NCBI GenBank assembly: GCA_030619985.1
Contig: JAUXAI010000066.1
Span: 1 to 5,983 of the forward strand
Direction of reading: 5' to 3'
Source of the DNA: a bacterium
GTDB lineage: Bacteria > UBP18 > UBA7526
DNA: 5,983 nt
The notes beneath the pieces were generated by a model that was given only the letters and a program-made list of their open reading frames with translations, had not been told where the DNA came from and made no database searches. The position numbers and the translations under genes were made by a program. Of this stretch, positions 284-5,983 are shown piece after piece (position 1 is the stretch's first letter; each line of letters starts with the position of its first letter).

Positions 284-286
284 TTT

Positions 287-370
287 AAGTTGATAAGTTA
301 ATAAGTTGACAAGTTGATAAGTTTCTTGGTAACTTGTATTCTTGTTGACTTGTTTCCTTGTTAACTAACT
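287..370. repeat. Period-8 octamer repeat tract with orientation switch, between aroE and the prepilin peptidase gene
   Basis: On the plus strand four consecutive octamers read AAGTTGAT (287), AAGTTAAT (295), AAGTTGAC (303) and AAGTTGAT (311), followed by a degraded unit, AAGTTTCT (319). After a short junction the motif appears in reverse-complement orientation: AACTTGTA (331), TTCTTGTT (339), GACTTGTT (347), TCCTTGTT (355) and AACTAACT (363). The two halves can pair; for example 296-305 and 357-366 are complementary with one mismatch. The tract contains the aroE stop codon (361-363) and its last codons, and ends just before the prepilin peptidase ribosome binding site. A second tract with the same architecture lies at 4303-4390. 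Function is unknown; a stem-loop in the intercistronic mRNA or a mobile palindromic repeat are both possible. Confidence 0.85.
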
Positions 371-3073: not shown

Positions 3074-3130
3074 AAATCAGATTATGGGCAAAGACAGACC
3101 CCCTAATCATCGGTAAATGCTTAATATTAA

Positions 3131-3154
3131 ACGGCGCACTTCGTTCTCCGCCGT
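3131..3154. repeat. 24-bp hairpin repeat (ACGGCG...CGCCGT type), copy 2
   Basis: Second copy of 2638-2661 with 22 of 24 bases identical. Both differences fall in one inner base pair next to the TTC loop (A-T here instead of G-C). AT-rich flanks (TTAATATTAA before; TTAAATATTAA from 3161) can extend the stem imperfectly, unlike at copy 1. Confidence 0.8.
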
Positions 3155-3157
3155 TGA

Positions 3158-3174
3158 TGATTAAATATTAATCA
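3158..3174. repeat. AT-rich hairpin, 7-bp stem
   Basis: TGATTAA and TTAATCA pair perfectly around ATA. It directly follows the second 24-bp hairpin and may belong to the same composite element. Confidence 0.5.
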
Positions 3175-3189
3175 ATTTAATGCTCTCTT

Positions 3190-3210
3190 CAATGCCAGCG
3201 AAGCGCATTG
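3190..3210. repeat. Hairpin with inner GCGAAGC mini-hairpin
   Basis: CAATGC (3190-3195) pairs with GCATTG (3205-3210). Inside, GC-GAA-GC (3198-3204) forms the same triloop as the 24-bp hairpin, here on the plus strand. It appears to be a diverged, inverted member of the same hairpin family. Confidence 0.65.
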
Positions 3211-3233
3211 GGTTCGAAATTTATGACTATGCC

Positions 3234-3262
3234 ATCACTTCGTGATTGAAATTCCGATACCT
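3234..3262. repeat. TTC-triloop hairpin joined to a partial third copy of the 33-bp element
   Basis: ATCAC-TTC-GTGAT (3234-3246) is a perfect five-base hairpin. Overlapping its end, 3245-3262 matches 2613-2630 at 17 of 18 bases (ATTGAA, then TTCCGATACCT). The joining of a triloop hairpin to the 33-bp element mirrors the arrangement at 2579-2637. Confidence 0.75.
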
Positions 3263-3291: not shown

Positions 3292-3747
3292 TTAATTGTC
3301 AATGAGAAAGATCATGGCTACTTCATCACAATCGGGAAACTTTGGGCATCTAATGCATTCTCCCCATATCTTATGGGGCAATTTTTCTTTCTTAATTTTT
3401 TTAAAACCATTCCTCTTGAAGAATTTTTCTCGATTGGTGAGGGCGAAAACCCTCTTTATCCCCAAATCCTTTGCCTCTGAAAGAGCGCTTTGAAGGAGCC
3501 TGCTTCCTATCCTCCTCCTCCTTACTTTCCTATCGACTGCCAGGGATTTTATCTCTGCTAAGTCCTTCCAGCTAATATGGAGGGCACAGCATCCCAAGAG
3601 CTTCCCCTTCTCCTTCCAGACGAAGAAATCCCTCATATTTTCATATAATTCGTTCAGGGAGCGGGGAAGGAGGGCACCTTCCCGAGCATAGTGATTGATG
3701 AGCCTCTGTATCCCTTCAATGTCAGAAAACCTTGCTTTCTTAATCAT
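3292..3747 (-). CDS. GNAT N-acetyltransferase, short ArgA-like type
   Basis: A 151-residue single-domain acetyltransferase. Its sequence follows the short ArgA-like group, some members of which make N-acetylglutamate for arginine synthesis; that role is inferred here, not shown. Visible landmarks are LPRSLNELYENMRDFFVW at 27-44, LLGCCALHISWKDLAEIKSLAV at 50-71 (beta strands 3 and 4), the acetyl-CoA loop region VRRRRIGSRLL at 75-85, VFALTNREKFFKRNGF at 100-115, and a C-terminal PHKIWGECIRCPKFPDCDE with cysteines at 131, 134 and 140 that is characteristic of this group. The acetyl-CoA loop is odd: where the family usually has R/QGxG-I-G, this protein has four arginines encoded by AGG repeated four times (3511-3522). 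Its ATG overlaps the stop of the gamma subunit gene as ATGA and lacks a strong ribosome binding site, so it is probably translated by coupling to the oxidoreductase operon. Confidence 0.9.
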   Translation of the reverse strand: MIKKARFSDIEGIQRLINHYAREGALLPRSLNELYENMRDFFVWKEKGKLLGCCALHISWKDLAEIKSLAVDRKVRRRRIGSRLLQSALSEAKDLGIKRVFALTNREKFFKRNGFKKIKKEKLPHKIWGECIRCPKFPDCDEVAMIFLIDN

Positions 3748-4280
3748 TTAACGAGCTCGCTTCCTTTCTCAAGGGCCTTCTCATTTATCTCTAATAGGTC
3801 TTTCTTCTTCTCTCCTAAAATTTGGGGAAGAGATTTTATTATACTCTTCAGGGGGATTATTTTGCTCTTCTTTAAGTAAGCACCGAGGACAATCATATTG
3901 GCTACTTTGACGTTCCCTAATTTTATAGCCATCTCTGTGGCCGGGACCTCGGCTATCTCCAGATCCTTTCTCTCCACCCCCCTATCAACCAAGGAGGAAT
4001 TGAGAATCAAGAGGCCTTTCTCCCTCATCCTTTCTTCAAACTTATCAAGAGAGGGTTGGTTGAGGACGAGGCAAGAGGAAGGATGGGCCACCACTGGTGA
4101 GCCGATCTCCTCATCTGAGATAATCAGGCTACAGTTCGCCGTACCTCCCCTCATCTCTGCTCCATAGGAGGGGAAGAAAGTGACCTGGAGCCCCTCTAAC
4201 ATGGCCCCCTGGGCAAGCAGGCTTCCAGTAAACATGATCCCCTGGCCTCCAAAGCCAGCGATGACTATTTCCTTTCTCAT
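3744..4280 (-). CDS. korC: 2-oxoacid:ferredoxin oxidoreductase, gamma subunit
   Basis: The gamma domain of ferredoxin-dependent 2-oxoacid oxidoreductases helps form the coenzyme A-dependent catalytic assembly with the alpha and beta subunits in the cytoplasm. The 178 residues match a stand-alone gamma subunit. GFGGQGIMFTGSLLAQ at 9-24 is the family's N-terminal glycine loop, YGAEMRGGTANCSLIIS at 39-55 is the most diagnostic block, and NMIVLGAYL at 128-136 follows. A clear ribosome binding site (AGGAGAT) precedes the ATG by three bases. It follows the beta gene after a 98-bp spacer filled by an octamer repeat tract, and overlaps the acetyltransferase start by four bases. The symbol follows the kor naming for separate gamma subunits; from the alpha subunit the substrate is more likely branched-chain 2-oxoacids than 2-oxoglutarate. 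Confidence 0.93.
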   Translation of the reverse strand: MRKEIVIAGFGGQGIMFTGSLLAQGAMLEGLQVTFFPSYGAEMRGGTANCSLIISDEEIGSPVVAHPSSCLVLNQPSLDKFEERMREKGLLILNSSLVDRGVERKDLEIAEVPATEMAIKLGNVKVANMIVLGAYLKKSKIIPLKSIIKSLPQILGEKKKDLLEINEKALEKGSELVK

Positions 4281-4302
4281 ATTATCTCCTGTAAGGCGAT
4301 AT

Positions 4303-4390
4303 AGTTAACAAGTTGATAAGGATACAAGTTAACAAGGAAAAACTTGTCAACTAATCAACTTATTAACTTGTCAACTAATTAACTTGTATC
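4303..4390. repeat. Period-8 octamer repeat tract with orientation switch, between beta and gamma subunit genes
   Basis: On the plus strand the units read AGTTAAC (4303), AAGTTGAT (4310), AAGGATAC (4318), AAGTTAAC (4326) and AAGGAAA (4334), then flip to AACTTGTC (4341), AACTAATC (4349), AACTTATT (4357), AACTTGTC (4365), AACTAATT (4373) and AACTTGTA (4381). The spacing is exactly eight except for a seven-base unit at each of 4303 and 4334. Segments 4303-4319 and 4360-4376 are inverted complements with two mismatches in 17, one of them a G-U pair in minus-strand RNA. GATACAAGTTAA (4321-4332) and TTAACTTGTATC (4379-4390) are perfect inverted repeats. The beta stop codon (4379-4381) and its last two codons lie inside the tract. 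It is the same family as 287-370. Confidence 0.88.
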
Positions 4391-5116
4391 TTTGATGACC
4401 CCTAAGGGGAATTCAGGGAGCATTTTCTCCTCTACCCACCTGAGGGCCTCTTTGGGGCTTACCCACCAGCCAGTGGGGCACATGGATAGTATCTCCACTA
4501 AAGAGAACCCCCTATTCTCGAGTTGAACCTGGAATGCTTTCTTGATGGCTTTCTTTGCCTTTAATATATTCTTTGGACCGTTGACCGCTACTCGCTCAAC
4601 GTAGGCTGTTCCATCGAGCTGGGCCAGGGCCTCGGATATCTTTATGGGATAGCCTGCTATTTTTGGCTCCCGACCAGAAGGGGTAGTTAAGGTCTTTTGG
4701 CCAGTCAATGTGGTAGGAGCCATCTGCCCTCCCGTCATGCCATAGACGGCATTATTGACAAAGATCACGGTTATATTCTCTCCTCGATTGGCAGCGTGAA
4801 CCGTCTCTGCTGTTCCGATGGCTGCTAAGTCCCCATCTCCCTGATAGGTAAAGACTATCCTATCCGGTAGGACTCTCTTTATTCCCGTAGCTACTGCCGG
4901 AGGTCGGCCATGGGCGGCCTCAGTGGTATCGAATTTCCAGTACTGGTAAGCCAAAACAGCACAGCCTACCGGTGCCACAGCAATTATTTTCTCTCTTATC
5001 CCCAACTCATCGATTACCTCATAGATTAACCTATGAACGATGCCATGGCCACATCCTGGGCAGTAGATAGTCGGTACATCCTGCATACTCTCTGGCCGAC
5101 CAAATATTCGTTTCAT
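4379..5116 (-). CDS. korB: 2-oxoacid:ferredoxin oxidoreductase, beta subunit (thiamine pyrophosphate-binding)
   Basis: Binds thiamine pyrophosphate, decarboxylates the 2-oxoacid with the alpha subunit, and passes electrons toward ferredoxin. In 245 residues it shows CPGCGHG at 19-25, the diphosphate motif GDGDLAAIG at 93-101 closing with NN at 121-122, and [11 protein letters not shown] at 126-136. Cysteines 19, 22, 52 and 213 (the last in CPTGWW) match the spacing of the four cluster-binding cysteines known in this family, so one 4Fe-4S cluster is likely. [19 protein letters not shown] at 67-85 is typical of the Kor/Vor group rather than of pyruvate enzymes. The start ATG overlaps the alpha stop as ATGA, which indicates coupling. 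The final codons ACA AGT TAA fall inside the octamer tract, so the end of the protein (...KDTS) was shaped by the repeat. Catalytic motifs are intact. Confidence 0.95.
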
Positions 5117-5983
5117 CTTAAGACTTTCTTTATCCTTTTGATAATTGCTTTCACTTCTGGCAGACTACCTGCTGGCCGACCATAGAAATGGACCGGACAT
5201 CTTCCATTCACTGCCAATCTCACATCCTCTACCATCTGTCCCAGATTCATCTCTACAGTAAGATACCCTTTTATCCTCGAGGCATTCTCTAAAATGATCT
5301 CTTCGGGGAAAGGAAAGAGAGTGATGGGTCTTATGAGCCCCACTTTTAATCCCTCTTTCCTTGCCCGATGCATGGCCTCCTTGCCTATTCTGGCTGGGGT
5401 CCCGAAGGCCACCAGGATCACCTGAGCATCTTCTATTCCTATAGCCTCATATCTTATCTCTTTCTCCATCTCTTTATACTTCTTAGATAGTTTCTCATTA
5501 TGCTTCTCTAGTACCCCTTCTCCTAAGCGAAGGGACTTTATACTCCTTGGTTCCCTTCCCTGACATCCATTCAATATCCAATCCTTCTCTGGGATTTGGA
5601 CCTTAGACTTTGGACTTTGGACTACTTCTACTGGTTCCATCATCTGGCCTAGAACCCCATCTCCTAAAATAATGACCGGATTTCTATACCTATCCGCTAA
5701 ATCAAAGGCCTCTTTCGCTAGATGAAACATCTCTTGAACGGAATGGGGAGCCAAAACTAGGGTGCGATAGTCTCCATGCCCGCCCCCTCTTGTTGCCTGG
5801 AAGTAGTCTCCCTGGGCCCCGGAGATATTCCCCAGTCCCGGGCCTCCCCTCTGGATATTGACTATGACACAGGGGAGCTCTGCTCCTGCCATATAGGAGA
5901 TCCCTTCCTGCATCAAACTTATTCCAGGAGAAGAGGAAGAGGTCATGGCCCTTGCCCCAGTTAAAGAAGCGCCATAGAGCATA
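5113..5983 (-). CDS. vorB: 2-oxoacid:ferredoxin oxidoreductase, alpha subunit, VorB-like; N-terminus outside window
   Basis: Alpha subunit of a ferredoxin-dependent oxidoreductase that converts 2-oxoacids plus CoA to acyl-CoA and CO2. It is most like the 2-ketoisovalerate (3-methyl-2-oxobutanoate) enzyme subunit VorB. The first 289 visible residues start within the N-terminal domain: [20 protein letters not shown] at 3-22, [20 protein letters not shown] at 27-46, [16 protein letters not shown] at 57-72, and [13 protein letters not shown] at 107-119. A linker follows, then the second domain with [13 protein letters not shown] at 191-203, [11 protein letters not shown] at 216-226 and [18 protein letters not shown] at 243-260. 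Whole VorB proteins are about 350 residues, so roughly 60 are missing beyond 5983; the methionine at 5980-5982 is internal, not the start. The linker at about 121-130 is encoded by a heptamer repeat. A ferredoxin-like delta subunit gene would be expected just upstream, out of view. Substrate specificity is inferred from resemblance. Confidence 0.93.
5595..5622. repeat. Four tandem heptamers inside vorB
   Basis: On the plus strand TTTGGAC (5595), CTTAGAC (5602), TTTGGAC (5609) and TTTGGAC (5616) follow each other with no gaps. On the coding strand they read GTCCAAA and variants and encode VQSPKSKVQ in the linker after the EPVE block. Seven is not a multiple of three, so the repeat is read in different frames in successive units, yet the total leaves the gene open. 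Confidence 0.8.

Follow-up and report, generated by a model that had tools for sequence, protein, structure and literature searches.

An octamer-armed hairpin tract between putative oxidoreductase subunit genes as a probable copy of a dispersed, fast-turnover intergenic repeat

The period-8 tract that separates a beta-like from a gamma-like subunit gene in the stretch of DNA analysed here (hereafter the window, 5,983 nucleotides of contig JAUXAI010000066.1, assembly GCA_030619985.1, from a bacterium of the UBP18 lineage) is, in the explanation that we favour with moderate confidence, a single copy of a non-coding hairpin repeat that is dispersed, turns over fast, is probably neutral or selfish, spreads at the DNA level through hairpin tips and is carried in its operon as a passenger. 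The focal copy does not stand out among the others. Its family is part of a wider group of hairpin repeats, with periods of 7, 8 and 10, that occupy the gaps between genes in this lineage; its copies are dispersed with a fixed polarity, change in unit number, take part in hairpins nested in tips, and are replaced wholesale at orthologous spacers.

Across positions 4281-4390 the lag-8 match score amounts to 20, which none of 5000 dinucleotide shuffles reached (shuffle maximum 14), so that the 8-bp period with a strand flip recognised in the initial annotation is real at 4302-4390. Lag 16 scores 24 and lags 5-7 and 9-12 score 2-4, and in 1000 dinucleotide shuffles no lag between 4 and 16 equalled the focal score. 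The AAG cores (4310, 4318, 4326, 4334) and the AACT cores (4341, 4349, 4357, 4365, 4373, 4381) are each spaced by exactly eight, as had been noted, but the register claimed across the whole tract does not extend over the flip, which shifts the phase, the last AAGTT and the first AACTT being 15 nt apart. The left half had also been described as filled with AAGTTNNN; this is half right, since its units alternate between AAGTT and AAGGA, with AAGTT in two of the four. The main inverted repeat joins 4302-4336 with 4343-4377 (35 nt, 77% complementary, 6-nt loop). This single hairpin with 35-nt arms describes the tract better than the two competing folds proposed earlier, whose pairs represent alternative registers: the 12-base pair 4321-4332/4379-4390 is indeed perfect (12/12), whereas the 17-base pair 4303-4319/4360-4376 exists but matches at 15 of 17 positions. 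Folding of the minus-strand RNA had been suggested as a check; as RNA, both strands proved far more stable than shuffles (z -6.9 for the sense strand and -7.3 for the other; 0/200 shuffles as good), and the DNA folds of the two strands gave z -5.6 and -4.8 (again 0/200 as good).

Table. Features of the window that bear on the focal tract.
Feature	Position	Strand	Basis and remarks
Focal element: octamer-armed hairpin repeat, arm A-loop-arm B on +	4302..4390		Lag-8 score, inverted arms, other genomic copies
Arm A: TAGTTAAC AAGTTGAT AAGGATAC AAGTTAAC AAG	4302..4336	+	Inverted arms, lag-8 test; other copies with the same grammar
Arm B: (AACTTGTC/AACTAATC/AACTTATT)n	4343..4377	+	Complementary to arm A at 27/35 positions
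Final arm-B unit	4379..4390	+	Pairs perfectly with 4321-4332
Putative 2-oxoacid:ferredoxin oxidoreductase gamma-like subunit, flanking	3744..4280	-	ORF; synteny in G001-G004; function read from sequence
Beta-like subunit, flanking	4379..5116	-	ORF; orthologues 87-96% identical
Gamma leader with small Shine-Dalgarno hairpin (UAUCGCCUUACAGGAGAUA)	4282..4300	-	Outside repeat; kept throughout genus and family despite turnover of the spacer
Second window copy, A to B on -	286..366	-	Between shikimate dehydrogenase-like stop and prepilin-peptidase-like gene
Period-7 tract (TTTGGAC)n, another family, inside alpha-like ORF	5595..5623		G002 (L056): another heptamer (GGATCCT type) in this position

On the plus strand, the focal element is antisense to its flanking genes, and its final arm-B unit supplies the last codons and the stop of the beta-like gene (GAT ACA AGT TAA on the minus strand). 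Similarly, the stop codon of the shikimate dehydrogenase-like gene is supplied by the second window copy, whose counterpart in G002, the genome of a sister species, belongs to the same family with a different unit number. No terminator-like site (a GC-rich stem followed by a T run) was found in 4281-4390, no Rfam 15 family exceeded its gathering threshold on the window (the best overlap reached 27 bits against 99 needed), and Rfam 15 returned only a tRNA above threshold on ten loci with longer elements. The gamma Shine-Dalgarno sequence sits in a small hairpin, UAUC..CCUUACAGGA..GAUA, which is kept in G000, G002 and G004 and is similar in G001 and G003. Further palindromic repeats of the GGCGGAGAGCGAAGCGCGCC and GAAGTTCCGATACCTTAAAATA types are located at 2570-2700 and 3120-3250, each occurring more than once in the window.

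Searching the window's own genome (G000, 1.25 Mb, read around its tracts only) with the focal tract returned 60 matches at about 40 places, and the exact pattern AAGTTNNNAAGTTNNNAAGTT occurs 37 times compared with zero for a reversed control pattern; the window alone carries two tracts of the family, at 4302-4390 and 286-366. The octamers are thus not confined to this locus, and the suspected family of dispersed palindromic repeats with an exact 8-bp period and a central flip is borne out. The full element is an asymmetric hairpin, in which arm A is built of AAGTTRAC units in alternation with AAGGATAC-like ones, (AAGTTRAC AAGGATAC)n, a short loop lies near AAGGA/AAACTT, and arm B alternates AACTTGTC or AACTTATT with AACTAATC, (AACTTGTC AACTAATC)n. 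All 18 two-armed copies in G000 run AAGTT-first and none AACTT-first (p 8e-6), as do six of the seven in G002. Because an inverted repeat reads alike on both strands, this polarity is a property of the hairpin and not an orientation to transcription; for the same reason purine-first arms are uninformative, and a strand bias of the arms was discarded as a sign of transcriptional orientation.

In the comparison set, where six genomes represent the phylum, the repeat is present in both other species of the genus sampled and, of three further genomes of the same taxonomic family, in G004 and G005 but not in G003. The pattern RAGTTRAYRAGTTRAYRAGTT is carried by 8 of 386 surveyed genomes, namely five of this family together with G218 (25 matches), G059 (2) and G250 (1). 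Although G218 possesses the same octamer, no two-armed copies were seen in its sampled stretches. A scan of named genomes located the octamer pattern in Prevotella, other Bacteroidales, Niastella, Elusimicrobia, Omnitrophota and others, largely in intergenic positions. Carriage by viruses was rejected, as only nine matching stretches were obtained among 2.9 million viral contigs.

The focal family is found in none of the four orthologous beta-gamma gaps, three of which hold other repeats and one a plain spacer. In G001 the gap holds a hairpin of CAGGCTN/AGCTTGN heptamers; G002 has a repeat of the TGTAAAATG type that does not fold (z -0.2), G003 a plain AT-rich spacer of 66 nt, also without a fold (z -0.06), and G004 an AACAATG hairpin (z -4.4). 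Comparison of 64 orthologous spacers (G000 or G001 versus G002) gave tracts of the same family in 9, of different families in 13, in one species only in 24, and in neither in 18, meaning that the same family was kept in 9 of the 46 spacers bearing a tract in either species. Most of the aligned flanks of these spacers are 84-98% identical in DNA, and the spacer lengths are uncorrelated between orthologues (rho 0.17, p 0.19). One locus, L026, provides a clear pair of filled and empty sites. Judging from the heptamer tracts at 5595-5623 of the window and at L056 of G002, swapping appears to take place within a coding frame too. At a score of 9, a tract of a different family was predicted by the presence of one in the other species (odds ratio 4.4, p 0.014), which was not the case at a score of 11 (odds ratio 1.6, p 0.42); with same-family pairs set aside, tract presence is weakly or not correlated, depending on the threshold. 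In view of the correlation at the laxer threshold, some slots may be favoured or functional.

Such repeats are not limited to one family. The spacers of G002 (660 kb; the spacer borders are approximate, as ORFs were defined simply by length) display autocorrelation peaks at lags 7, 8 and 10 and their multiples, which coding DNA lacks. A tract of period 7, 8 or 10 was identified in 160 of 310 sampled G002 spacers, compared with 1.2 expected from shuffles; the tracts fall into more than 12 motif families, many with inverted arms, and repeats of this kind fill about half of the intergenic gaps of this lineage. Almost no such tracts were found in 20 unrelated genomes, each represented by one sampled stretch, while in the unrelated G023 25% of spacers have a tract, in stretches that were chosen around its own tracts. 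Period 9 is rare among the G002 tracts (7/164). As none of the common periods 7, 8 and 10 is divisible by 3 and TAA or TGA is part of many units, the arrays carry stops in all frames. Two other kinds of intergenic element were encountered. A hairpin of about 110 bp with GC-rich terminal repeats (GAACCCCGCCCCTC..GAGGGGCGGGGTGAA) is cleanly inserted at the beta-alpha junction of L056, at L106 of G001 and near the shikimate dehydrogenase start in G002, with an empty site in G000; it resembles a MITE family, with 2-3 bp duplicated. An element of about 140 bp with the ends GATTTCTGAAAAA..TTTTTTCAGAGACCTC lies between genes at L023 and L021 of G000 and is missing from the same sites of G002.

Hairpins of different kinds are furthermore stacked within one another. 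Eleven copies of a hairpin core of about 120 bp (GCCCGTATCG..CGAAACGGGC) are present in the stretches of G002 and G005; on our reading six of them lie inside AAGTT arms, one (L103) lies beside heptamer arms, and the others have neither. With one uncertain copy set aside, 6 of 10 cores are thus in AAGTT hairpins, compared with AAGTT arms in 27 of 313 G002 spacers (~9%), an excess for which a rough test at a background of 10% yields p ~1.5e-4. Two copies of the core (L085, L094) are themselves interrupted at the tip by a further hairpin, and stacking is three deep in some spacers (L080).

Given its strong sense-strand fold and its place between the subunit genes, directly upstream of the gamma Shine-Dalgarno sequence, the tract could be imagined as an RNA element of the operon, a transcribed hairpin that tunes the beta:gamma ratio by controlling stability or translation. 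However, the orthologous gaps are unrelated, and unfolded in G002 and G003, yet the gamma Shine-Dalgarno leader is retained; the antisense fold is equally strong, and neither a terminator-like site nor an Rfam family above threshold accompanies the tract. The initial annotation had proposed an effect on subunit ratio, transcript stability or gamma translation, which is not supported, as the gaps of relatives hold unrelated sequence, the family is missing from all four, and in two of them no significant fold is seen. We therefore regard such an element as very unlikely. An operon-specific RNA switch was rejected as well, the slot being occupied in relatives by unrelated or unfolded sequence, and so was a strand-specific RNA function: the sense strand has the lower MFE in 83 of 130 spacers, but antisense z values are as good and tract-free spacers are equally biased. 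An ordinary octanucleotide microsatellite grown by polymerase slippage would be in line with a few near-perfect tandem copies, (AAGTTRAT)11 in L031 and (AAGTTGAY)8 in L026, and with the unit numbers that differ between G000 and G002 copies. Nevertheless, adjacent units are not homogenised: their identity is 0.13 at a distance of one unit compared with 0.12 for random, and increases to 0.24 at two units (16 bp), 0.28 at three and 0.31 at four. With adjacent units no closer to each other than randomly drawn ones, and similarity increasing over two to four units, the arrays are not explained by the addition of one octamer at a time; slippage would also be insufficient for dispersal and nesting, and it leaves the asymmetric arms and the polarity common to loci unaccounted for. 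This explanation, already disfavoured, is hardly credible.

Units across the families, judged by two neighbours only, have fixed cores and are free at other positions (GATCACN, CAGGCTN, ATC[AG]GGNN and GGT[TG][AT]AC). A core of five to six bases with free neighbours and random-like adjacent units is unlike plain slippage and may reflect recognition by a protein. The tracts would then be arrays of binding sites for a protein of the ribbon-helix-helix type that reads repeats of 7, 8 or 10-11 bp, direct or inverted, in an operator, nucleoid or centromere-like setting. Besides the conserved core positions with freely varying neighbours, this is suggested by plasmids: among five with a match, three of the four examined (Enterobacter, Klebsiella, Erwinia) have arrays of AACTTATT and AAGATAAC/AAGGTAAC octamers beside a ParA gene, and each plasmid ParA has a partner of ~101 aa that has the look of a ribbon-helix-helix protein. 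Omega is known to bind 7-bp WATCACW repeats, direct or inverted (PMC9499535), and ParG binds spaced tetramer boxes (PMC7308502). On the other hand, RHH_1 (PF01402) was found in none of the six genomes nor in G218, a weak test as the plasmid partner itself weakly matches RHH_8 (PF17723); the many motif families would require many proteins, and from one sister species to the next tracts disappear or are exchanged, all of which makes a protein array doubtful. The plasmid arrays, at L279, L280 and L281, have no feature in the gene table and are probably centromeres or operators. A somewhat better, though still unlikely, candidate is a non-autonomous MITE- or REP-like element whose hairpin is acted on in trans by a transposase, with the octamer arms as terminal repeats. 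Dispersed copies with a fixed polarity and a common loop junction argue for it, together with the filled and empty sites at L026 and other spacers of the genus into which hairpins bounded by GC-rich terminal repeats (GAACCCCGC..GCGGGGTGAA) have been cleanly inserted. Inverted arms are present, but no target duplication was resolved in orthologous comparisons, and the tags GTAG, CTAC, CGTC and GACG are absent from both window copies. Mobility genes were searched for with two profiles in six incomplete genomes of the family: the Y1/RAYT transposase (PF01797) was found in 0/6 (53-93% complete), with positive controls in E. coli and G023, and reverse transcriptase (PF00078) also in 0/6, with positive controls in three named genomes.

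We return to the dispersed, fast-turnover hairpin repeat as the preferred explanation. The spread and replacement of its copies would take place in the DNA itself, the most likely cause being that single strands able to form hairpins induce template switching or tip insertion during replication or repair; slippage in steps of 16 bp or larger would accompany this hairpin turnover, and the focal copy would be a transcribed passenger of its operon that lacks a conserved regulatory role. No unambiguous target duplication was caught for any insertion of the focal family in the orthologous comparisons, and the mechanism of spread is therefore one that we can only infer. More tentatively, we speculate that a process driven by replication or repair might spread hairpins without any dedicated transposase or reverse transcriptase, new ones entering the tips and displacing the old, so that intergenic DNA would be rebuilt many times faster than coding DNA. 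If the preferred explanation holds, a large part of the intergenic DNA in this lineage of small genomes would consist of fast-moving nested periodic hairpins and not of conserved regulatory sequence, which cautions against taking such hairpins for riboregulators. The lineage would also offer a natural system for the origin and spread of hairpin repeats, and it would be worth asking why unrelated phyla share the octamer RAGTTRAY, which is also found next to partition genes of plasmids.

A literature search by repeat sequence words found nothing, and we found no description in the literature of a hairpin with octamer arms that combines the nesting of hairpins with wholesale replacement in sister species; several known systems nonetheless share part of these properties. 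The REP/BIME palindromes mobilised by RAYT are likewise dispersed intergenic hairpins, whereas the repeat described here has no GTAG/CGTC tag, no RAYT and longer periodic arms (PMC3733652). Centromere arrays of ParA/ribbon-helix-helix systems (omega/parS, ParG/parH) also consist of contiguous 7-8 bp repeats, direct and inverted (PMC9499535, PMC7308502), and similar AACTTATT/AAGGTAAC octamers adjoin parA in three plasmids; those arrays, however, are restricted to one or a few sites per replicon beside par genes, in contrast to the dozens of chromosomal spacers and the absence of any detected RHH_1 protein here. The TAACTGA repeats of marine Beggiatoaceae, Cyanobacteria and Bacteroidetes resemble ours in being intergenic, of short period and patchy across phyla, but they are almost all direct, have a single motif and lie mostly just upstream of starts, for which a translational role was proposed (PMC4679880). 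The GGGNATC heptamers of Xanthomonas and GGGGAYT heptamers of Nostoc are, as here, degenerate tandems with a fixed core, dispersed between genes, varying in length and sequence between close species and including some inverted pairs; unlike here, their period is 7, they form G-quadruplexes, each genome has one motif, and most repeats keep the same flanking genes in two species (PMC4692102). The statement in the initial annotation that no such family had been described is not quite right, as the part of the Geobacter metallireducens report available to us lists octanucleotide tandems that are paired on opposite strands at variable distance and dispersed, with the units GTTGCTYN (four copies), TCTCCGTS and TWGTTGAY (2+2) and the heptamer MTYCTGA (PMC2700814). 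These repeats were proposed to be sites of global regulators (IHF/HU), and that portion of the text does not speak of swapping between sister species or of nested hairpins (PMC2700814). Nevertheless TWGTTGAY is close to the arm-B unit [AT]AGTTRAY observed here, and in both cases tandem octamers are paired on opposite strands, which, by likeness of sequence and as far as that portion goes, makes the paired octanucleotides of G. metallireducens the closest precedent for the present family (PMC2700814).
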